38,102 bases of DNA from Spirochaetota bacterium (GTDB lineage Bacteria > Spirochaetota > Spirochaetia > B11-G9), in contig JAJRQE010000295.1 in NCBI GenBank assembly GCA_024280415.1, forward strand, positions 1 to 38,102, given 5' to 3'. Position numbers and translations under genes: made by a program. The notes under the pieces are model-generated. The model searched no databases, was not told the origin of the DNA, and saw nothing but the letters and a program-made list of their open reading frames with translations. Shown piece by piece: positions 14,281-27,598 of the stretch. How positions within the stretch are numbered: position 1 is the stretch's first letter; the number at the start of each line of letters is the position of its first letter.

Positions 14281-14658
14281 ATGAAAAAAATTATTATTTT
14301 TACTATTGCAATTTTGAGCCTGTTCATCTCCTGTAAAGATGATAAAACTGTTTTTGATATTGAACTCCCTGCCACCTCAGTTTTGTCTGTTCAGTCCAGA
14401 TGGAGTGTCATAAATTCAACCCACCTTCGGCTTCGGGAGAGACCCGATATAAACAGTAAGGCAATTACTACACTATGGAAAGGGTATATCCTTGAAGTAG
14501 TTTCCCAGGGTTCGAAAAAAGAAATTCTGGAAGATGAAGAGGGCTATTGGTATCAGGTGAAATATGGAGGGCTCCAGGGCTGGGTTTTTGGTGCATATCT
14601 TAAATTTTTTGAAACCAGAGATGCTGCTGAAAGAAGTTCAAGGGAGATAAAGGGATAA
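14281..14658 (+). CDS. SH3-domain lipoprotein
   Basis: 125 residues from ATG at 14281 (MKKIIIFTIAILSLFISC); a start at 14248 would add a less signal-like leader. Signal peptide with lipobox LFISC, Cys at residue 18. A bacterial SH3 domain follows: STHLRLRERPDINSKAITTL, then GYWYQVKYGGLQGWVFGAYL. Such domains bind peptides or cell-wall material, so a surface or periplasmic peptidoglycan-linked role is likely. The stop overlaps the next start (TAATG), making it co-translated with the DUF445 membrane protein. Confidence 0.75.
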   Translation: MKKIIIFTIAILSLFISCKDDKTVFDIELPATSVLSVQSRWSVINSTHLRLRERPDINSKAITTLWKGYILEVVSQGSKKEILEDEEGYWYQVKYGGLQGWVFGAYLKFFETRDAAERSSREIKG

Positions 14659-16229
14659 TGGATCTTTTTTTAAAAATAATTCCCTGGGTTCTGCCTCCTC
14701 TGATCGGTGCTTCAATTGGGTATATTACAAATGCTATAGCAATAACAATGCTTTTTCGCCCTCATAGGGAGAAGAGAATCCTCTCTATTCGTATTCCTAT
14801 GACTCCTGGGATAATTCCCAAACAGCGATATGAACTCTCTGTAAGTGTAGGGAATATGGTTTCCCGGGAACTTCTTACAGAAGATGCTGTTAGAAAGCAG
14901 ATACACTCCGAATCTTTTCAGAAGAGTCTGGAAAAAAGTGTACGGGCTTTCCTTGAACTAGGTATGGATACTCCTGCAGAAGATATGAAAATGCTTTTAA
15001 AGGGATCAACGTTGAATATTAAACAGGAAGGTTCTATAAAAGAATCATTTCTGCCCGAACTGCTTAATAATTTTCTGCAGTCAGATGGATTCACTATACT
15101 CCTGGATCAAGTTCTGGATAAGGGGATCTTATATTTGGAAAACAGATCCCTGAGTCGTCTTTTCCCAGCTTCTAGAGAAAAAATAATTTCAAAATTTATT
15201 ATGCTCATCTCCTCAGAAGATTTTGAAGAGCGGTTTGTTTCAACTATTGATAAATGGCTGGAAAAATCTGTCCATGATAATTTTAGAATATCTGAATTCC
15301 TGACTGAACAGAATATAGACAGAGCTGCTACTGTTTTTAGAAAATTTTTTATAAAAATTTTTCCCCATTTAATTCATTTTCTCAACAGTCATGAAGTGGC
15401 ATCTGAACTGGAAGTACATGGAAGAAAACTCCTGGAAGATATAATTAAAAAACTCAACAAGATACAGAGATTTTTAATTTCTGCAGGACAGTACGACAAA
15501 ACCCTGGATGAAAATATGGCCGAAATAGTTGTTGATACAATAAATAATATTAAGAATTATGGCGAAACAGAAAAAAATATCGAGACAATTGTGAATGGGT
15601 TTAGACGTAGAATGGTTTCTTTAAGTCAAAAGACTGCAGGGGAGCTTTTTTCCAGCTGGGACGGTGATCTGTTTGACGATATTCGAAATATTGAACGATC
15701 CTTTTTTGAATTTATCCGTAATCCGATAATCCTTGGGAATGTTGAAAACTGGATCTCTTCACTCTACAATAAATATGGGGATAAAGACTTGAAGACCCTG
15801 CTAAATGAGTGGTTCGGTCTGTCCTTTGATACAATAAAAAAATCTCTGATTCGCATGTTGATTTCAGGAGAAGATCCTCTGGTAAAAAAGTCCGGGAGTT
15901 TAGTTTCCAGTATATTTAATACCGTCACAGATAATGGAAGAAAATCTATTGGAGATATAATAAATATATCATCAGAATTACGTAATAGAATTAATATTAA
16001 TCTTTGCCGCTCTTTTGTTGGCATAATAGACAATAAGATACCCCAAATTCTCGAAAGTATAGATGTAAATACCCTTGTTGTAAATAAAATAGATACTTTG
16101 GATATGGCAACAGTGGAGAAGCTCATTCTCGATATTGTAAAAAAGCAGCTCCGCTGGATTAACCTTTTCGGAGCACTTCTGGGATCAGTTATCGGAGGTG
16201 CCCAGCTGCTTTTAAATATGTTTATGTAG
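14658..16229 (+). CDS. DUF445 family membrane protein
   Basis: 523 residues. N-terminal membrane segment and the family signature GYITNAIAITMLFRP (21-35) followed by PMTPGIIPKQR; a long helical, partly repetitive middle; and a C-terminal hydrophobic segment (FGALLGSVIGGAQLLLNMFM). This matches DUF445/YheB-like proteins, which are anchored at both ends. Function is not established. It is translationally coupled to the SH3 lipoprotein (TAATG), suggesting a shared envelope role. It is convergent with the thiamine operon, with only 18 bases between stops and no clear terminator. Confidence 0.85.
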   Translation: MDLFLKIIPWVLPPLIGASIGYITNAIAITMLFRPHREKRILSIRIPMTPGIIPKQRYELSVSVGNMVSRELLTEDAVRKQIHSESFQKSLEKSVRAFLELGMDTPAEDMKMLLKGSTLNIKQEGSIKESFLPELLNNFLQSDGFTILLDQVLDKGILYLENRSLSRLFPASREKIISKFIMLISSEDFEERFVSTIDKWLEKSVHDNFRISEFLTEQNIDRAATVFRKFFIKIFPHLIHFLNSHEVASELEVHGRKLLEDIIKKLNKIQRFLISAGQYDKTLDENMAEIVVDTINNIKNYGETEKNIETIVNGFRRRMVSLSQKTAGELFSSWDGDLFDDIRNIERSFFEFIRNPIILGNVENWISSLYNKYGDKDLKTLLNEWFGLSFDTIKKSLIRMLISGEDPLVKKSGSLVSSIFNTVTDNGRKSIGDIINISSELRNRININLCRSFVGIIDNKIPQILESIDVNTLVVNKIDTLDMATVEKLILDIVKKQLRWINLFGALLGSVIGGAQLLLNMFM

Positions 16230-16247
16230 GGGAAACAGGATATATTT

Positions 16248-17411
16248 CTAAGTTTTAATAAGCCAGCATTTTTCTGGGTTTACCGTAACTGTTATATTTT
16301 CACCTTCTGTAAGTGTACTGGTATAATAATAATCCATTTCTCTTATTTCTGTTTTAAGCAGAGTTTTCCCCCATCTGTATTCAACTGAAAGCTGTCTTCC
16401 AAAATATTCGGTAGATACTATTTTCCCGACAATACTATTTTCCTGTTTACCAGAGCTAAAATCACCACCTTTTACGGGTTTTATGGTAGAGGGTTCAGCC
16501 TTGTAAACCACCTCTTTTGGAGGTGGTTGTTGACTGAATTTATTTATAAAATTAATTTTTGTATCCTGGGGGCGAAAGAATAGCAGGTAGTTTTGTTTCG
16601 GGAGAATCTTCTCTCTCCAGGGAAGCCTGAAGAGGAGTTCAGTATTTTCTGTAGAAAGCAGGATCCCCTCTGTCCTGTCAGCTTTTTCGACAGTGCAGGG
16701 TATTGTATTTGAGTCTCCCAGAAAGTCTCCGCAGAATTTTGTTGCCGGACGATTGTAAAGCTCCCAGGGGGTTCCTGTTTGTTCAATCTTCCCCTTATTC
16801 ATAAGAACTATCCTGTCGCTTATGGAGAGAGCTTCCTCCTGATCATGGGTAACATATATTGTAGTAATCCCGAGTTTTTGCTGAATCTCCCTTATTTCCC
16901 GTCTCAGGCTTCTTCGCAGGGTTGCATCCAGGGCACTAAGAGGCTCATCCAGAAGAAGCAGCCTGGGCGATGGGGCAAGAGCCCTTGCAAGTGCTGTCCT
17001 CTGTTTTTCACCTCCGGAAAGGGATTCCACCTCTCTTTTTTCATAACCTCCAAGGTGTACCAGATCCAGCATTTTCTGACAGATTCCTTTAATTGTTTCA
17101 GAATCTTTTCTTCGAGCCTTTAGTCCGTAGGAGATGTTGGCAAGTACATTCATGTGGGGGAAGAGAGCATAATCCTGGAATACTATACCAATATCCCTAT
17201 CCCAGATGGGAACATCTGTAACTCTTGTGCTGCCGATAAAAATATTACCACTGTCAGGAGTCAGAATCCCGGAAATTAGGCTAAGAGTTGTTGTTTTTCC
17301 ACAGCCCGAAGGCCCTAGCAGAGTTACAAGTTCCCCCTTATTTATCGTTAAATCAATTTCAATATTAAAATCAGGAAACCTTTTTTTTATATTTTTAAGT
17401 CTTATTCCCAT
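16248..17411 (-). CDS. thiQ: Thiamine ABC transporter, ATP-binding protein
   Basis: 387 residues. Walker A GPSGCGKTT (33-41), Q-loop VFQDYALFPH, signature LSGGEKQR, Walker B LLLLDEPLSALD and H-loop VTHDQEEAL, so the ATPase is complete. It is much longer than the usual ThiQ (about 215-235 residues): residues beyond about 240 form a TOBE-like C-terminal extension, as in PotA/FbpC-type importers. Assignment to thiamine comes from the operon with thiB/thiP and the TPP riboswitch; alone it would read as a spermidine/iron-type ATPase. It starts 17 bases after the permease stop. Confidence 0.8.
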   Translation of the reverse strand: MGIRLKNIKKRFPDFNIEIDLTINKGELVTLLGPSGCGKTTTLSLISGILTPDSGNIFIGSTRVTDVPIWDRDIGIVFQDYALFPHMNVLANISYGLKARRKDSETIKGICQKMLDLVHLGGYEKREVESLSGGEKQRTALARALAPSPRLLLLDEPLSALDATLRRSLRREIREIQQKLGITTIYVTHDQEEALSISDRIVLMNKGKIEQTGTPWELYNRPATKFCGDFLGDSNTIPCTVEKADRTEGILLSTENTELLFRLPWREKILPKQNYLLFFRPQDTKINFINKFSQQPPPKEVVYKAEPSTIKPVKGGDFSSGKQENSIVGKIVSTEYFGRQLSVEYRWGKTLLKTEIREMDYYYTSTLTEGENITVTVNPEKCWLIKT

Positions 17412-17428
17412 TTATTGACTCCTAAGAT

Positions 17429-19099
17429 TTAATTATGTGATCCGAAATAATCCATCAGAATAAATGACAGACCGGTAATTACAATAAGAACTGTTCCAAG
17501 GGCACAGGCTGCAGTAAAGTTATATGCACCGATCAGTCTGTAAATCATTATGGGTATTGTAAGGGTGTTTTTATCTGCCAGCAGTATTGTTGCATTCATC
17601 TCTCCAATAGAGATGGCAAAAGCAAAAGCTCCTCCTGCAAAAATTGCTGATTTAATTAGTGGAAGTTCAATTTCGGTAAAAACTTTAAATGGCCTCTGCC
17701 CCAGACTGAGGGCTGCATAAAGCAAGTTTGGTTTAATTTTATCCAGAACAGGTTTTACAGATCTTGTTACAAAGGGGAAGGCTATTACTGAATGAGCAAA
17801 AATAATTAAAAGGGAGGAACCCTCTAAAGAAATATTTAAGGAAGATACTGTTTTAAGATAACCCAGTCCCAAAATAATCGAGGAAACAGAAACCGGCAGC
17901 ATAAAGAGAGTATCCAGATATTTTGAGATTTTGTTTCCGGAACGAAGAATATAGCTTATGGCAGTTCCCAGAATAATTGAAATAATTACACTGTAAAATG
18001 CAAAGGTTAACGAATTAATAATAGCCTGATATACGGGTAAACCGAAGTTTCCTCTGCTTTGTCCAAGTATTTCCATATAGGCGGCAAAAGTAAGATATTT
18101 GTATCCTCCTGAAGTTTTTATGAAGGACTTAACAATTACAGATAACACAGGAGCAGCAATAAGCAGCACCAATATCAGGATATAGACAGCTATAGCAGAT
18201 CTTAGAGCCGGAGAAGTTTTTTTATTTTTTTTATACATTTCTGAATTCTGTTTTATCTGATCATGATGAGTCATATCTGCCTGGAAGTGGACATTAAGAT
18301 ATACGAAAATCAGGGTAATAAAGATTCCCACTATGGCAAGAGCAGCTGCGGCATCCATATTGAGTGATATACGTGCCAGTCTGTATATTTCGACCTCTAT
18401 TGTTGTAAAGGAGGGACCTCCTCCTAAAACAAGTATTACTGCAAAGCTTGTAAAGCAAAAAACAAATATAAGAGCGGCACTGGCAAGGATAGCAGGAACA
18501 ATCTGGGGTAGTGTGATAGTAAAAAAAACCTTAGTCTTTCCTGCCCCCAAAGACTCTGCCGCCCTTGTAATAGTTGGATCAAGTTTCTCCCAGAGGGAGG
18601 CAACAATACGTAAAACTATTGGGAAATTATAGAAACCGTGGGCAAGAATTATTGCTTTCATAGAGTATAAAATCTTTAAAGGAGGATCAGTCTGTTTTGT
18701 AATACCCATAATTATTCTGTTTAGAAAACCATTGTTTCCGAAAAAAATAACAAAACCCAGGACAACAAGGATTGAGGGAAGTACAAAAGGCACAGCAGAA
18801 ATTCCCTTCAGAATATTTTTCCCGGGAAAGTTCTTTGTTGCAATAATCCAGGCTCCCGGGAGTCCAAGTAAAATAGCAAAGATAGTACTCAGCAGTGCCT
18901 GGACAATGGTAAAGAGTATTATTCTCTGATTGTAGGGGGAACCAAGGAGATTTGTTATATTCTTAAAAGAAAATGATCCCGAATCGGAAATAAATGCCCC
19001 TTTTAGAACCATAGATATTGGGAGATAGAAAAGTAGAAACAGAAATGCCCCTGCTGAAACGAGCAGCAGGGTATATCTCTGTCTATTCAGTAACGGCAT
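17429..19099 (-). CDS. thiP: Thiamine ABC transporter, permease (two fused permease domains)
   Basis: 556 residues with about twelve membrane segments. Two binding-protein-dependent permease domains are fused head to tail, each with its EAA loop: AAESLGAGKTKVFFTITLPQ in the first half and AALSLGQRPFKVFTEIELPL in the second. This duplicated form is typical of ThiP and of FbpB-type iron permeases. A charged linker (MTHHDQIKQNSEMYKKNKK) separates the halves. ATG at 19099 overlaps the end of thiB by 17 bases. Confidence 0.85.
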   Translation of the reverse strand: MPLLNRQRYTLLLVSAGAFLFLLFYLPISMVLKGAFISDSGSFSFKNITNLLGSPYNQRIILFTIVQALLSTIFAILLGLPGAWIIATKNFPGKNILKGISAVPFVLPSILVVLGFVIFFGNNGFLNRIIMGITKQTDPPLKILYSMKAIILAHGFYNFPIVLRIVASLWEKLDPTITRAAESLGAGKTKVFFTITLPQIVPAILASAALIFVFCFTSFAVILVLGGGPSFTTIEVEIYRLARISLNMDAAAALAIVGIFITLIFVYLNVHFQADMTHHDQIKQNSEMYKKNKKTSPALRSAIAVYILILVLLIAAPVLSVIVKSFIKTSGGYKYLTFAAYMEILGQSRGNFGLPVYQAIINSLTFAFYSVIISIILGTAISYILRSGNKISKYLDTLFMLPVSVSSIILGLGYLKTVSSLNISLEGSSLLIIFAHSVIAFPFVTRSVKPVLDKIKPNLLYAALSLGQRPFKVFTEIELPLIKSAIFAGGAFAFAISIGEMNATILLADKNTLTIPIMIYRLIGAYNFTAACALGTVLIVITGLSFILMDYFGSHN

Positions 19100-20111
19100 T
19101 TATCCATTCATCTATCCAGGAATCAAGGTTTTTATCAAGCTTTTCCGGATCAATCAGAAGGCTTTTTGGAGGTTTAGGTGCTGCCCTGAAGGATTCAGGA
19201 AGGGGCAGTTCGGTTCTTACAGGGTACATCCAGTTTGTCAGGGGAATGGCATTCTGGAATTTGCTTTCCAGAATAAAATCTATAAATCGTTCGGCTTCTT
19301 TTGGGTGTTTTGCTCCCTTTATTATTCCGGCACCTTCAATCTGCATGTAATGTCCCTGGGGGAAAATCGCAGCTTTGTAACGTTCAGAGTCTTCATATTC
19401 TTTATGGTAAGCAGGGCTTGTTGTGTAGCTTAAGACCATGGGAGCCTCTCCCTCGGTAAAGAGACCGTATCCGGAATCCCATCCATCGGTGATTGTAAGA
19501 ACCGAGGGCATCAGTTTCTTCCAGTATTCTTCGAACCCATCTCCCATCACACTTTTTGTCCAGAGCATAAAACCCAGTCCCGGACTGGAGGTTCTGGGAT
19601 CCATTAGTATTAGTGATTTACTGTACTCCGGTTTAAGGAGGTCTGCCAGAGACTCAGGAGGGGTGCTGATCTTCTCAGAGTCATAAATTATGGAGAAATA
19701 TCCATAGTCAAAGGGGGTAATGTGGTTTGTTTTGTCAAACCTAAGTTCGTTTGGAATCCTGTCCAGATTAGGGGATTTGTATGGAACAAGAAGATTTTCT
19801 CTAAGGGCTTTATAAAGAAGATTATTATCTATCCCTAAAAGTATATCCCCCTTTGGATTCTCCTTTTCCAGCATTGCTCTCTGAACCATCTGTCCGGCAT
19901 CTCCAGCAGATATGACAGTAACTTTTATTCCGTACTCCTCTTCAAATAATGGGAAAACAATAGGTCCGGGACCCCATTCCGAAACAAAAGAATCATAGGT
20001 ATATATTATTAAATCTGATGTGCCGGAATCCTTCTCTTTTTTATTAAAAAAAGAAAATACAGATACAGCTGCAATGAGAATAATGAAAAAAAATGTAAAA
20101 AATTTACGCAT
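19083..20111 (-). CDS. thiB: Thiamine ABC transporter, substrate-binding protein
   Basis: 342 residues from ATG at 20111, behind GGAGTG. An N-terminal hydrophobic signal (RKFFTFFFIILIAAVSVFSF) without a lipobox Cys suggests a periplasmic or membrane-tethered protein. The thiamine/TPP-binding family pattern is clear: YTYDSFVSEWGPGP, then NPKGDILLGIDNNL and EGEAPMVLSYTTSPAYHKE. A longer frame reaching 20213 exists only because the TPP riboswitch happens to be open, so it was not used. First gene of the thiBPQ operon. Confidence 0.9.
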   Translation of the reverse strand: MRKFFTFFFIILIAAVSVFSFFNKKEKDSGTSDLIIYTYDSFVSEWGPGPIVFPLFEEEYGIKVTVISAGDAGQMVQRAMLEKENPKGDILLGIDNNLLYKALRENLLVPYKSPNLDRIPNELRFDKTNHITPFDYGYFSIIYDSEKISTPPESLADLLKPEYSKSLILMDPRTSSPGLGFMLWTKSVMGDGFEEYWKKLMPSVLTITDGWDSGYGLFTEGEAPMVLSYTTSPAYHKEYEDSERYKAAIFPQGHYMQIEGAGIIKGAKHPKEAERFIDFILESKFQNAIPLTNWMYPVRTELPLPESFRAAPKPPKSLLIDPEKLDKNLDSWIDEWINAVTE

Positions 20112-20154
20112 AGAACACTCCATAGAGAAAATTTTGGAATGTGGGTAAGAATAT

Positions 20155-20240
20155 GTCTCGTTCCCTTCGCCGGCATTATCCGGATCAGGTTCAACGGGTT
20201 TAATCTCAGGCATGTATTAAAACAAACCACCCCACGACAG
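20155..20240 (-). promoter_or_regulatory. TPP riboswitch (THI element)
   Basis: The minus strand shows the THI-box order: GGGGTGG, then CTGAGAT, AACCCGTTGAACCTGATCC, GGATAATGCCGGCGAAGGGA. These match the conserved pyrimidine- and pyrophosphate-sensor cores. It lies about 45 bases upstream of thiB and immediately downstream of a promoter, so thiamine pyrophosphate should shut the transporter off. The expression platform before the start codon is short and AT-rich; with no clear U-tract, control of translation is more likely than termination, but this is inference. Confidence 0.95.
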
Positions 20241-20868: not shown

Positions 20869-21939
20869 ATGGGAGATAAGTATAGTATTGCCGTACTGCC
20901 CGGAGACGGAATAGGGCCGGAAGTTATGGCAGAAGCCTTAAAGGTACTGGAAAAGATAGAGGAATCTTTTAAGATTGAATGCAGCACGACAGAAGCTGAT
21001 TTCGGCGGAATAGCTATAGATAATCATGGAGAGGCCCTCCCTGACTCAACTTTAGACCTTTGTAAGAACTCAGATGCGGTTCTGCTGGGTTCCATAGGGG
21101 GTCCTAAATGGGAAAACCTTCCTCCTGAGCAGCAGCCTGAGCGTGCAGGTCTTCTTCCCATACGTAAAGAACTTGGGCTTTTTGCAAATCTAAGACCTGC
21201 CATAATATTTCCCCAGCTGACAGCTGCATCTCCATTAAAAGATGAAATTCTGAAAGGGGGAATGGATCTTCTGGTGGTGCGTGAACTGACTGGTGGTATC
21301 TATTTTGGATCTCCAAAGGTAAGAGAGGGGGATAAAGCTCTGGATACCCTTGTATACACAAAACCTGAGATTGAAAGAATTGCCCATGTGGCTTTTAAGG
21401 CGGCAGAGCAGCGTCAGGGTAAGGTAACTTCCATAGACAAGGCGAATGTTCTAACCTCCATGGTTCTCTGGAGGGAGGTTGTTACCGAACTTGCGAAGGA
21501 GTATCCTGAAGTTGAGGTAAACCACATGTATGTGGACAACGGAGCAATGCAGCTTGTACGAAACCCGAATCAGTTTGATGTAATTCTATGCGGAAACATG
21601 TTTGGGGATATTCTTTCTGATGAGGCCTCAATGATTACAGGATCTCTTGGAATGCTTCCAAGTGCATCTCTTGGCGAGGGTAATTTCGGTCTTTATGAAC
21701 CTTCCGGTGGGAGTGCCCCTGACATAGCCGGAAAGGGTATTGCAAATCCAATTGCACAGATCTTATCCCTGGGTATGATGTTTAAGCATAGTTTTAACCG
21801 TAAAGATATCTATGATGCAGTATTTCAGTCAATTTCCGGGGTTCTGGAAGCAGGATACCGAACTAAGGATATTTATACTCCGGATTGTACAGTAGTAGGC
21901 ACTTCAGAAATGGGAACAATGATTACAGAGAAATTATAG
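20869..21939 (+). CDS. leuB: 3-isopropylmalate dehydrogenase
   Basis: 356 residues, normal length; ATG follows AGGAGA at six bases. It oxidises and decarboxylates 3-isopropylmalate with NAD in leucine synthesis. Family features: [10 protein letters not shown] at the N-terminus; the substrate loop with [25 protein letters not shown] and D residues in SIDKANVL and [10 protein letters not shown]; the metal-binding [13 protein letters not shown]; and [14 protein letters not shown]. The [16 protein letters not shown] segment fits isopropylmalate rather than isocitrate dehydrogenase. No other leu gene is near, so it stands alone here. Confidence 0.97.
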
Positions 21940-22056: not shown

Positions 22057-23661
22057 ATGGACGATGCAGTAAAGAAGAAAATGATTGGGCTTATGGAAGC
22101 CTCAACAAAATTACAGCAGGAAGTTGCCGGTAATGTATGGGATCTGTTCTCTGTAGCCAACCTTAACAGTGCATATGTTACAGAGATGATTAATTCGGCA
22201 GCCACAAGTGATTCGGATGTTGAAGTGATCCATTCCAAGCTTAAGGATATAACAGATGCAGCAGACAGGATTGTGGATAATATAGAAGATTCATTAAAAG
22301 AGTTACATATTGGTAACAAATCATTTGATCAGACCTCCAGGGTAATGGATGAGTTTCTTAACGGATTAAAACAGATGGGAGATCAGTTTCGTAACTTTAA
22401 GAATGTTTTTTCCGAGGTACAGCAGGCAACCAGCAAAATTAGTAAAACTGTACATGCCATTGCAGATATTTCTGAACAGACGAACCTTCTTTCCATAAAT
22501 GCGGCAATAGAAGCTGCCAGAGCCGGAGAGCATGGAAAGGGCTTCAAGGTTGTTTCTGATGAGGTTAAAAAACTTGCGGAAAAAAGTAAAAACTTAACAA
22601 CTGATATTTCAAAACTCCTTAATACCCTGGAAAAGAATATAAGCTCCTCGGAAAATAATCTGATTGTCTATGAGAATATAAGTAACGGACTCAACGAGAA
22701 AGTGGAAACGGCACGGACTGATCTTTCTGTGACCTCCGGTTCCCTTTCCAGGATTGACAGCAACATGAATAATAATGCTGAATCTGTAAGGAGTCAGTCG
22801 GATAACATTGAACGTATCTATCACTATGTAGGGCAGCTCAGTAATTCCTATACCCTTCTTAACAGCAGTTCAAAACATATAATAAATAATATGAAGTACC
22901 AGGATGACATTATCAATTCCATGAAAGAGCAGGATCATGACAGCAAACAGGTAATTGAGCTCCAGGAAGATATTCTAGAGGATATGGGAATTTACAGTGA
23001 TAAAAGCAAGTTTGTAAGGGTGGGGCACGATGTTGCATATCCCCCATGGGTGTTCATTAAAGCAGGAGTCTCTTCCGGGGTGAGTGTTGATATTATGAGA
23101 ATTATTAACGAAAAACTGGGTCTGCATTTGTACTTTCAGCCCGATCAGTTTATATCAATTACCGAAGGTCTTTTAAGCAGAGATATTAAAGTAATACTAA
23201 ATGTAGGCTGGCCCAATGATTTCCTTGCAAGTAAACCTATAATTGCCACTAACCCCTATTCTGTTTTTAAACCTGTAGCATTTATGCATAAAGATTCTCT
23301 GACAGCTAATGAATTGCTTCCTTTGAATTTTTTAAATGGTAAAAAAATAGCAGCCCAGAAGGGCTCCTATACCATTGAAGAACTGAAAAACTACGATTGT
23401 AAAATAGTTCCTGTTATTAATGAAATAGAGGGTTTAAGTAAACTGATATGGAAACAGGTCGATGGAGTTATAACAGATAAACAGGTAGGTACCTATTTAT
23501 CCCGTAAATATTTTCAGGATGAGATAGTTGCTGTGACAGCTCCCTATAAGGAGCTTGATGTGGTAATGGTTCTTCATGAAAAAGATATCGAATTGAGAGA
23601 TAAAATTAATACAATACTCAAAATGGAAGATATAAACAGGAAAATAAATTCTCTGTTATGA
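22057..23661 (+). CDS. Soluble chemotaxis transducer fused to a solute-binding (SBP_bac_3) domain
   Basis: 534 residues from ATG at 22057, behind AGGGGA. No signal peptide or membrane segment is visible. Residues about 90-230 carry an MCP signalling hairpin: the tip is [20 protein letters not shown] followed by [19 protein letters not shown]. The C-terminal 205 residues (from [16 protein letters not shown]) form a family-3 periplasmic-binding domain ([50 protein letters not shown]). The order, signalling domain first and binding domain last, with no membrane crossing, implies sensing of a cytoplasmic solute that feeds CheA. The arms of the MCP domain are short. The stop overlaps the convergent phoR stop by six bases. 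Confidence 0.8.
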
Positions 23662-25455
23662 GGGGATTCTAATAATAAATTCCGTTCCGGAATCCTGGCT
23701 GCTTACTAAGTTTATTTCTCCCCTGTGGGCGAGAATAATGTGTTTTACAATAGCCAGACCCAGGCCTGTACCTCCCAACTCCCGGCTTCTTGCCTTATTA
23801 ACGGTGTAAAATCTCTCAAATACTCGGGGGATATCTTTTCCTGGTATGCCGGGACCGTTATCAGAAATTTTAATAAGTGTATAATCTTTAAACGCCTCTC
23901 CGGAAATTGTTATAGTACTTTGTTCCGGACAGTATTTAACTGCGTTATCAATTAAATTTATAAGTGCCTGTTCAAAAAGAGAGGGATTAACCTTAATTAA
24001 AAGATTTTCCGGAAATAACATTTCTGTAACAATATCTTTTGCCTGGATTCTTTTACTGCAATTTTTAAACGCAGAGGAAACACTTGCAGCCAGAGTGATA
24101 TCTGCCAGATCAAGGGGGGTGTTTTCAAAAGATTCCAGTTTCGAAAGACTAAGGAGGTCACGGATAATTGTATCTAGTCTTCTGGATTGAGACTCGATGA
24201 TATCCAAAAACTCATGTGTATCCTGACTGTTATTAATTGCTCCATCCTTAAGGGTTTCCACAAAACCGAGTATAGAGGTAACTGGTGTTTTAAGTTCATG
24301 GGAAACGTTCGCTACAAAATCTTTTCGGATACGTTCAAGGGTTTTTATTTGTGTAATATCGTGTAATACGACAATAATACGTGTCTGTAAATCTTCCGTT
24401 TCAATAATGGCAGTATTAATCTGCAGGTATATATCTCTGGATGTAAATTTATTATTTCCGAATTCATCACTTTTATTATTAAATTGCTCCTTTAAATGGA
24501 TGGTTCTGTTCTGTGATGATTTTTCCAGTAATGTTTTTTCTGCTGTTTCAATTAACTCTCTGTTAAGAGTAACCTGAATAAGTGATTTTCCTCTGGCTGA
24601 GTCTGCTTTAAACAGTTCGAGAGCAGCATTATTTATATCCTTAATAATGAAATTTTTATCAACAACAATGATTGATTCAATTAATGCGGAAAAAACTGTA
24701 TTAAGTTCCATCCTCCGGCGGTTTGCTGAGTTGAATTTTTGTTCGAGAATCCCTGACATTTTTTTTAAATTTAGTGAGAGGTTATAAATTTCCAAAGGAC
24801 CGTCAATGGTTTTTAATGATGAAAAGTCCAGGGATGATATATCGTTACTCATTATTTCAAGGAGTTTTACCGGACGGGAAATACTACGGGTAATGTAGTA
24901 GTTCATTAATAGAACCGATACTGCAATAACTAATAAAATAAGAAATATTTTTAGATAGGTGGTTTTTAGAATTGATCCGGATATTTCCATGGGCAGGGAT
25001 ATTCGTATTACTCCCGCTATTCCCTTATCTGTTTTTACAGGCAGAGCGAAATAATACATTTTCATGTTTAGACTTGTACTAAAGCGTTCTGAGAATCCTT
25101 CTTTTCCTGCCAGTGCTTTCTGTACTTCCATCCTGGAAATATGATTTTCAAGTTTTTCCGGGTCAACATGGGAATCTCCTGAAACCACTCCGTCAGGGAG
25201 CATTACAGTTATCCGGAAATCAGTATTTTCCGAAATATTGATCGAAAAAGCAGTCATAATTTCCTTATCACTGATATCTTCAAAGGGTAAAACATTTCTG
25301 ACAAGATAAGCAGTTTCTCTTATAGTTTTATATATCTGATCATTAAAGATATCACTTACACTCCCTGTGCTTACAATGTAAAGTAATATCAGCGGTAGAA
25401 TTGTTAAAATAACAAGAAATGGATAAATTGTACCGGGTAAAGTTCTACGTTTCAT
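23656..25455 (-). CDS. phoR: Phosphate-sensing histidine kinase PhoR
   Basis: 599 residues. Membrane segments at about 10-30 and 168-188 flank an extracytoplasmic region of about 135 residues; then a HAMP-like stretch, a PAS domain (about 250-370; [17 protein letters not shown]), HisKA with H386 ([19 protein letters not shown]), and an ATPase with N-box [12 protein letters not shown]1 SDNGPGIPG and G2 [13 protein letters not shown]. This layout is that of PhoR/PnpS kinases with a large sensory region. Its start overlaps phoB by 11 bases, so it is translated with it. Last gene of the phosphate operon. Confidence 0.9.
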
Positions 25456-26152
25456 TTACAGCTTCTGCCATTCTGTATCCAATACCACGGACAGTTTCAA
25501 GAAATTCCCCCTGATTTTTTAGTTTTTTTCTTATTCCCAGAATCTGAACATCCACGGATCTCTCAGTAACGGGATAGTTTTCCCCTTTGACAGCACTTAT
25601 TATCTGATTTCTTGAGTAAACCCATCCAGGATTTCTACATAGAAATGTAAGTATTGCAAACTCTGTAAAACTTAATTCTACTTGGGATCCTTCTGTCGTA
25701 ACCTCATGTTTTTCCAGGTTAATATATATTTTATGAATACTTATAGCAGTTTGAAGTGAAGTATCAGGATTGTTCTTATGCGCTCTTCGAAGAATCGTTT
25801 TAAGCCTGGCAATTAGAATTTTAGGACTAAATGGTTTTGTAATGTAATCATCTGCACCGGCTTCCAGACCCTCAATTATATCGCTGTCATCACTACGTGC
25901 TGTCAGCATTAAAATTGGTATATGAGATGTCCGTTTATCTTTTGAGAGCAGTCGGCAAACTTCCAGTCCGTTCAGCCCCGGAAGCATAAGATCCAGTACT
26001 ATTATATCGGGGGTAATTTCGAAAGCTTTTGATAAGGCTGATTCTCCACTTGCAGCTGCAGCTGTTTTGTAACCATCATTCTCAAGATTATATTTAATAA
26101 GTTTTAAAATACTCTCTTCATCATCTACTATCAGTACTGTTTCTTTCGGCAT
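25445..26152 (-). CDS. phoB: Phosphate regulon response regulator PhoB
   Basis: 235 residues. The receiver domain has phospho-acceptor D54 (IIVLDLMLPGLNG), acidic pair at 10-11, T/K switch residues (LTARSDD, ITKPFSP). The C-terminal OmpR-type winged helix ends with the recognition region NQIISAVKGENYPVTERSVD and RKKLKNQGEFLETVRGIGYR. Likely binds the 11-bp repeats upstream of pstS. It starts two bases after phoU ends and overlaps phoR. Confidence 0.92.
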   Translation of the reverse strand: MPKETVLIVDDEESILKLIKYNLENDGYKTAAAASGESALSKAFEITPDIIVLDLMLPGLNGLEVCRLLSKDKRTSHIPILMLTARSDDSDIIEGLEAGADDYITKPFSPKILIARLKTILRRAHKNNPDTSLQTAISIHKIYINLEKHEVTTEGSQVELSFTEFAILTFLCRNPGWVYSRNQIISAVKGENYPVTERSVDVQILGIRKKLKNQGEFLETVRGIGYRMAEAVNET

Positions 26153-26154
26153 AT

Positions 26155-26817
26155 TTATCCCAGTTCCACATGTTCACCGGTTGTCGAATAGACAATCCAT
26201 TCACATATATTTTTAATATGATCTCCAAATCTTTCAAGAAACATATTTATAAATAACAGGGTAGTTGCATTTTGCTGGTCTTCCTGAGTACTCATTAATT
26301 TTTCGAATACATCTCTTATAACCTTATTATGTATAAGATCAACCTCATTATCAAGTAATGCAACGGATCTTGCTTCTTCAGCATCTTTCTCTATGTATGC
26401 ATTGAGAACCCTGTGAAGCATCTCTTTTACTATAGCAGCCATTTCCGGCATATTGAAGAGGGGGTTTTTCCCTGTATTGTTTTCTTTAAGAAGACGTATT
26501 ACACCTTTTGCGATGTGCACAGCATGGTCACCCATTCGTTCAAGCTGAGTACTTATTTTAAGGGCTGTAATTAAAATACGTAAATCTCCTGCCACCGGCT
26601 GCTCTGTAGCAATAAGCAGAATACAATGATCCTCAATACTTATTTCCATATTATTGATAGTTTCATCTTCGGAAATTACTTCTTCTGCCAGTTCAATATC
26701 CATGTCGACAAGACTGTCCATTGCTTTATTCAGGGCTTGTTCTACAAAAATTCCCATTTTGACAATTTCATTGTTAAGTTTAGATATTTTTTCGTTATAA
26801 TCAACTCTTATTTTCAT
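26155..26817 (-). CDS. phoU: Phosphate transport regulator PhoU
   Basis: 220 residues from ATG at 26817 behind AGAGG; a longer frame to 26910 overlaps pstB and is not needed. Two PhoU three-helix repeats are visible, each with its metal-binding signature: QLERMGDHAVHIAKG and LERFGDHIKNICEW. PhoU links Pst transport activity to PhoR and keeps the regulon off when phosphate is plentiful. It starts 10 bases after pstB. Confidence 0.95.
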   Translation of the reverse strand: MKIRVDYNEKISKLNNEIVKMGIFVEQALNKAMDSLVDMDIELAEEVISEDETINNMEISIEDHCILLIATEQPVAGDLRILITALKISTQLERMGDHAVHIAKGVIRLLKENNTGKNPLFNMPEMAAIVKEMLHRVLNAYIEKDAEEARSVALLDNEVDLIHNKVIRDVFEKLMSTQEDQQNATTLLFINMFLERFGDHIKNICEWIVYSTTGEHVELG

Positions 26818-26827
26818 TTTATTCCTC

Positions 26828-27598
26828 TTATCCGAATCGACCGGATATATAATCTTCTGTTTTTTTATTTTTTGGATTGATAAAGATAGAACTGGTTTTA
26901 TCATATTCAACCAGATGTCCTGCTCTGTCTTTATCAGTCATTAAAAATGCAGTAAAATCAGATATTCTTGATGCCTGCTGCATATTATGGGTAACAATAA
27001 TTATAGTAAAATCTTTGGATAAAGTCTTCATTAAATCTTCTATTTTTAATGTAGCAATAGGGTCCAGAGCAGAGGCCGGCTCGTCCATCAATATTATTTC
27101 CGGTTGGACTGCTATAGTTCGGGCTATACATAATCTCTGCTGCTGGCCTCCAGAGAGCCGTAAGGCATTTTCATTCAGTTTATCCTTTACCTCATCCCAA
27201 AGAGCGGCACTCTTTAGAGATTTTTCTACCAGCTCTCCCATATCCCCCTTGTATCCGTTTATTTTGGCTCCCCAGGTAATATTATCCGAAATACTCTTTG
27301 GAAAGGGATTTGGTTTCTGAAATACCATCCCTATCCTTTTTCTTAAGGATACAGCATCTGTCCCGGGAGAATTTATATTTTTGTCCTGAAAAATAATTTT
27401 TCCTTCAGTCCTGGCTCCTGCAATCAGATCATTCATTCTGTTTATTGCTCTTAGAACTGTACTCTTACCGCAACCTGACGGGCCAATAAAAGCTGTTATT
27501 TTATTTTTTCTGATATCAAGGTTTATATCTCTGACAGCCTTGAAATTTTCGTAATATACATTTAAATCTTTTAGACTTAAGATATAATTGTCTTTCAT
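26828..27598 (-). CDS. pstB: Phosphate ABC transporter ATP-binding protein
   Basis: 256 residues, standard length. Walker [10 protein letters not shown] (39-47), PstB-type Q-loop [16 protein letters not shown], signature [18 protein letters not shown], Walker [14 protein letters not shown]-loop [12 protein letters not shown]. The KPNPFP motif is specific for PstB. It starts 6 bases after pstA stops. Confidence 0.97.

Follow-up and report, generated by a model that had tools for sequence, protein, structure and literature searches.

A soluble spirochaete chemoreceptor with a C-terminal solute-binding domain and an altered ligand pocket

Domains of the PF00497 family are usually extracytoplasmic, and the presence of one at the C-terminus of an apparently soluble chemoreceptor in a Spirochaetota genome raises the questions of whether this architecture is real, where the domain resides, and what it might sense. 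The gene lies in the window, by which we mean the whole 38,102-nucleotide stretch analysed (contig JAJRQE010000295.1 of assembly GCA_024280415.1), and comprises the following elements:

22057..23661, + strand: whole gene, soluble MCP with a C-terminal GWPN-type solute-binding domain, 534 aa
22063..22521, + strand: MCP hairpin helix 1, residues 3-155, about 22 heptads (AlphaFold full-length model)
22525..22983, + strand: MCP hairpin helix 2, residues 157-309, continuing into the solute-binding domain (AlphaFold full-length model)
22378..22839, + strand: MCPsignal PF00015 match, residues 108-261, with the conserved CheA/CheW-contacting tip at about N148-V166
23005..23658, + strand: C-terminal solute-binding domain, residues 317-534, SBP_bac_3 PF00497, type II flytrap fold

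An uninterrupted frame runs from the ATG at 22057 to a stop codon ending at 23661 and encodes 534 residues; a Shine-Dalgarno-like AGGGG is found 8-12 nt 5' of the ATG. Pfam scans place MCPsignal first and SBP_bac_3 second, each over its gathering score: PF00015 matches residues 108-261 (E 2.6e-31; 109 bits against a cutoff of 34.6) and PF00497 matches residues 320-522 (E 3.5e-9; 37 bits against a cutoff of 26.4). A sequence-only reading of this DNA had proposed that a family-3 solute-binding domain follows the MCP hairpin, in reversed domain order; the Pfam matches and the AlphaFold model bear out the first point, and the order is retained in full-length relatives, which preserve the architecture at 26-77% identity. 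A frameshift or annotation artefact was rejected, as the frame is open in dozens of genomes, and a chance profile match was likewise dismissed on the strength of the independent fold prediction, the clade described below, and the architecture kept by these relatives. A soluble MCP with a C-terminal solute-binding domain is thus confirmed as a real architecture.

The full-length AlphaFold model (a monomer, with a moderate pTM of 0.59) consists of helices at residues 3-155 and 157-309 followed by the solute-binding fold. At the hairpin tip, N148, E152, G160, F163 and V165 are invariant among 20 homologues and R155 is almost so; the roles of these residues, which we take from Tsr to be contact with CheA/CheW and the formation of receptor trimers, are presumably shared. 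The canonical methylation consensus is matched at a single site of the window protein; the match is weak and unconserved in homologues, and spirochaete sites may differ. Because this motif is unconserved in the alignment, adaptation, and even a true chemotaxis output, are uncertain. The window genome encodes an 815-aa CheA-like frame with a CheW domain, together with CheW and CheR genes, and a chemotaxis system therefore appears available to the receptor. As a separate observation, CheW and CheR domains share an apparent single 440-aa frame beside a CheA-like gene (G000:C63:28706-29881, + strand; loci L117 and L122); this frame of the window genome resembles CheWS, a CheW-CheR-like SAM sensor of Treponema denticola (PMC10653840).

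The earlier reading had also placed the protein in the cytoplasm, having seen neither a signal peptide nor a membrane segment. Topology and structure prediction agree with this view. The peak 19-residue Kyte-Doolittle hydropathy is 1.38 and falls within the solute-binding domain, a hydropathy scan of the N-terminus revealed no hydrophobic stretch, and Pfam and hydropathy scans found no HAMP domain or transmembrane segment such as would mark a transmembrane chemoreceptor. Neither a signal peptide nor a lipobox precedes the solute-binding domain, which directly trails the hairpin, so that both the soluble topology and the MCP-fused position support cytoplasmic placement. Homologues are also soluble if translated from the conserved start; at two loci (L015 and L124) a hydrophobic stretch appears only in an upstream-extended reading, which in L015 is an in-frame extension outside the conserved protein. 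Some cytosolic proteins are known to match profiles of solute-binding proteins (PMC9602780).

The same architecture was sought in other spirochaetes, and it recurs there while being uncommon, as had been anticipated. Fifty-nine near genomes yielded 12 long relatives at 29-77% identity, followed by a steep fall to generic MCP matches; all 12 keep the MCP-then-SBP order and are soluble from the conserved start. Across Spirochaetia, the solute-binding domain is present in 42 of 395 sampled genomes (about 11%) and in 26 of 133 genera. Two of 399 sampled Bacillota genomes were positive, both from one taxonomic order, within which 7 of 71 genomes were positive (the order searches around genomes G816 and G436 cover this single Bacillota order, and centres G425 and G426 a single phylum). 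In a looser phylum-wide search, members of the clade scored E <1e-59 with frames of roughly 500-570 aa, and beyond a gap came ordinary solute-binding proteins at E ~1e-19, mostly of 250-300 aa with an N-terminal hydrophobic segment. A whole-protein scan of genome contigs returned two close relatives and otherwise generic MCPs only, and a tblastn search of plasmids returned weak matches in ordinary solute-binding proteins only. Elsewhere, a single protein (L067:1-3561, + strand) carries four tandem SBP_bac_3-like domains (6-218, 252-464, 499-710 and 744-955) plus a membrane segment.

In a tree, the solute-binding domains of the clade are monophyletic (support 100/100), and all share an invariant GWPN motif. 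The N-terminal segment of the Bacillota MCP fusions shows no recognisable kinship with that of the spirochaete proteins, although their hairpin scores above generic MCPs; the sequences would fit either one fusion event or two.

Modelled alone, the solute-binding domain adopts a closed type II fold (pLDDT 94; AlphaFold). Its best match is closed glutamine-binding protein (GlnBP; TM 0.89), with 1wdn at 0.87 and the open form, 1ggg, at 0.59, and its closest solved relatives are amino-acid binders. Alignment with these relatives locates several pocket positions:

23026..23031, + strand: H324-D325, invariant; D325 aligns with GlnBP D10
23206..23217, + strand: G384-W385-P386-N387 (GWPN), invariant; replaces the carboxylate-binding G-x-T/S of amino-acid solute-binding proteins
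23227..23229, + strand: A391, at the carboxylate-arginine position (GlnBP R75 / LAO R77); Arg never occurs in the clade
23476..23478, + strand: D474, Asp or Glu in all members; amino-group aspartate position (GlnBP D157)

The list of GlnBP ligand contacts and its numbering are taken as background, the residue letters having been confirmed computationally. In all 24 GWPN domains aligned, GlnBP D10 corresponds to Asp (D325), A67 to Asn (N382), G68 to Gly (G384) and T70 to Pro (P386), and D157 to an acidic residue at position 474 (D or E, depending on the member). The carboxylate-binding arginine, GlnBP R75, is found in none of the 24 at the position of A391, as compared with 46 of 47 secreted relatives in the joint alignment, and every further locus checked has the GWPN motif and lacks the arginine. 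The pocket itself is well kept: the mean frequency of the majority residue is 0.81 at contact positions versus 0.50 over the domain (24 domains), and N382, GWPN and W331 are new invariant residues of the clade. A ligand pocket thus appears to be present, and of the two results that would have told against the earlier reading, a membrane segment or export signal and a missing pocket, neither was seen. With its contacts conserved and the clamp arginine gone, the pocket is apparently under selection yet altered on its carboxylate side. These patterns suggest that the clade descends from amino-acid-binding proteins, having lost the carboxylate clamp and retained both acidic anchors on the amine side.

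The GWPN-type domain also occurs behind a different partner, a putrescine-aminotransferase-like domain, in four Bacillota genomes:

L094:7645-9726, + strand: GWPN-type solute-binding domain behind a putrescine-aminotransferase-like domain
L095:9181-11151, + strand: the same arrangement
L096:7309-9423, + strand: the same arrangement
L097:988-3072, - strand: the same arrangement

All four genomes belong to one Bacillota order, and in each the GWPN domain comes after a domain of the class III aminotransferases (PF00202; the one fusion scanned gave E 1.4e-83), to which, among solved structures, PigE-type and putrescine aminotransferases are closest. The catalytic-lysine site, LAKALGGG in the E. 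coli enzyme, reads LPR or LPC in all four, and the catalytic lysine therefore seems to have been lost, R or C standing in its place. The fusion is an apparent pseudo-enzyme sensor. In the tree, its four solute-binding domains cluster together (100/99) within those of Bacillota, beside the MCP fusions. Because the GWPN domain is joined as well to this aminotransferase-like protein, whose enzyme fold is normally cytosolic, it would be expected to work in the cytoplasm, and the second fusion offers independent sequence support for that location.

What, then, might the receptor bind? The sequence-only reading had suggested an internal amino-acid pool, which the pocket does not support, given the clamp arginine in 0 of 24 domains against 46 of 47 secreted relatives and proline always at the position of GlnBP T70. 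With the clamp lost and both amine-side acidic anchors kept, a standard alpha-amino acid is an improbable ligand, although H324, N387 or Q434 could hold a carboxylate in place of an Arg at column 391. Amine sensors of the dCache_1AM type evolved from sensors of amino acids through loss of a carboxylate arginine (PctA R126) and retention of an aspartate (PMC10104139), and this parallel makes an amine a reasonable guess. We tentatively regard an amine, be it a diamine or another cationic metabolite, as the single most likely class of ligand, with which the aminotransferase-like partner family is at least compatible. A broader proposal is possible but doubtful: that the GWPN domains are a distinct cytosolic flytrap family, derived from secreted amino-acid binders by loss of the clamp and sensing an amine such as putrescine. 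With this family spirochaetes would navigate by an internal amine pool, and in one Bacillota order the domain would have been moved from a chemoreceptor onto a dead putrescine-aminotransferase-like protein to yield a second kind of regulator.

Two other candidates are suggested by the neighbouring genes, which are given as context and are not part of the receptor:

20869..21939, + strand: leuB, 117 nt upstream of the receptor on the same strand
16248..20213, - strand: ABC transporter (ATPase, ThiP-like permease and TIGR01254 thiamine-type binding protein)

The receptor could share an operon with leuB: no terminator-like site was found between them, but promoter matches are at chance level. The family of the window has a locus order of thiBPQ-like transporter, leuB and receptor, with leuB adjoining the receptor only in the window's own genus; two sister genera have thiBPQ-like genes nearby and a citramalate synthase just downstream of the receptor. 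The earlier remark that the gene follows leuB therefore stands for the window and its genus and fails for the sister genera and other families, where no leuB is adjacent, and the linkage was rejected as a functional clue because it is confined to one genus. Outside the family no shared neighbour of the receptor was found, the immediate neighbours identified by Pfam scans being FtsK, a UPRTase-domain protein, TldD, sigma-70, an amylase and PEPCK. Two further features of the window were noted: a cluster at 23656-27598 (- strand), convergent with the receptor, whose translations resemble a PhoR-like kinase, a PhoB-like regulator, a PhoU-like protein and a PstB-like ATPase, and which we read as a phosphate-regulation cluster; and a 523-aa protein without an NCBIfam match at 14658-16229 (+ strand), conserved in a sister genus (L102:3153-4745).

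Sensing of a branched-chain-pathway amino-acid or keto-acid pool, with other residues replacing the arginine clamp, would account for leuB and citramalate synthase beside the receptor and accords with the amino-acid ligands of the closest solved relatives; we consider it unlikely, since the arginine is missing from all 24 domains and the further loci, the T70 position is always proline, leuB adjoins in a single genus, and loci elsewhere have no linked amino-acid gene. The divergent transporter, which lies near the receptor in each of the family's three genera where the contig extends far enough, could instead import the ligand, and thiamine, thiamine phosphate or a related cation would suit a pocket with acidic and aromatic invariant residues. 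Its binding protein passes TIGR01254 (299 bits against a cutoff of 93) but falls below the thiB equivalog cutoff (252 against 317), its ATPase resembles other transporters better, and the linkage is confined to one family and may reflect shared ancestry of the locus, all of which renders this reading distinctly unlikely. It is also conceivable, if improbable, that the domain has ceased to bind a small molecule and now plays a structural or protein-docking part, determining the spacing of cytoplasmic arrays or the choice of partner within them: its canonical clamp has gone, and some SBP-like receptor domains, such as that of BvgS, function without a ligand. Against this, pocket positions are better conserved than the rest, the new invariant residues do not look like drift, and the pocket persists in two phyla and with two fusion partners. 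Finally, an enzyme could have arisen here as cyclohexadienyl dehydratase did from the same stock, AncCDT-1 and CDT-Anc1 being among the nearest solved relatives; these two are ancestral binding proteins, however, matches to GlnBP and to ancestral arginine-binding proteins are at least as good, and residue 474 varies between D and E, making catalysis highly improbable.

We therefore favour, with moderate confidence, a cytoplasmic chemoreceptor whose flytrap senses an internal metabolite, perhaps an amine, and reports it to CheA/CheW arrays. The N-terminal 310 residues would make up a long MCP hairpin of antiparallel helices with a CheA- and CheW-binding tip, and the C-terminal 220 residues a cytoplasmic Venus flytrap, sited at the hairpin end equivalent to the membrane side of transmembrane receptors. 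Binding of a small cytosolic ligand would close the flytrap and alter its packing on the beginning of helix 1 and the last part of helix 2; the CheA-controlling state of the tip would change in consequence. By analogy with other cytoplasmic receptors (PMC3964821), we infer entry into CheA/CheW arrays through the tip; dimerisation, closure as the switch and the sign of the response are likewise inferred.

Such a receptor would be a case of solute-binding domains, as a rule regarded as sensors of the outside, being reused inside the cell and swapped between partners, and would mean that a spirochaete cell may steer by one of its own internal small molecules, possibly an amine. To our knowledge, few cytoplasmic chemoreceptors have a known signal; a well-predicted soluble flytrap with a clearly altered pocket makes the question of an internal signal directly testable by binding screens. 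Our literature search, to which subscription journals were mostly closed, turned up no account of SBP_bac_3 placed behind an MCP. Cytoplasmic MCPs are known, and it is the C-terminal cytosolic solute-binding domain of a distinct subfamily that we provisionally regard as new, having sampled Spirochaetota and Bacillota.

Among known systems, GlnBP, LAO, ArgBP and AncQR share the fold, the PF00497 family and the acidic anchors D10 and D157; the receptor domain differs in having no export signal, transporter partner or carboxylate arginine, and in its invariant GWPN. The 3h7m histidine kinase, RmcA (7ejg) and BvgS also use such a domain as the sensor for a signalling output, but theirs precedes the output and lies outside the membrane, whereas that of the receptor is cytoplasmic and C-terminal. 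The dCache_1AM sensors display the pocket change proposed here, a lost carboxylate arginine and a retained amine-side acid, in an unrelated, extracytoplasmic fold and with measured amine specificity (PMC10104139), where ours is proposed from sequence. R. sphaeroides TlpC/TlpT and the V. cholerae cytoplasmic arrays likewise have an MCP hairpin without membrane segments (PMC3964821), and the receptor would be expected to pack with CheA/CheW in similar arrays; their sensor parts are other or unknown, in contrast to its recognisable C-terminal domain. H. pylori TlpD and S. Typhimurium McpA are soluble MCPs with a ligand-binding domain after the hairpin, and TlpD also lacks canonical methylation sites (PMC12871147). 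What they carry at the C-terminus is CZB, a zinc-binding domain of four helices that is unrelated to solute-binding proteins and to which a Pfam scan of the receptor gave no match, and TlpD adds an N-terminal PAS domain. In structure, TlpD is nonetheless the closest precedent for a soluble MCP that carries a ligand-binding domain, albeit a different one, behind its hairpin (PMC12871147).
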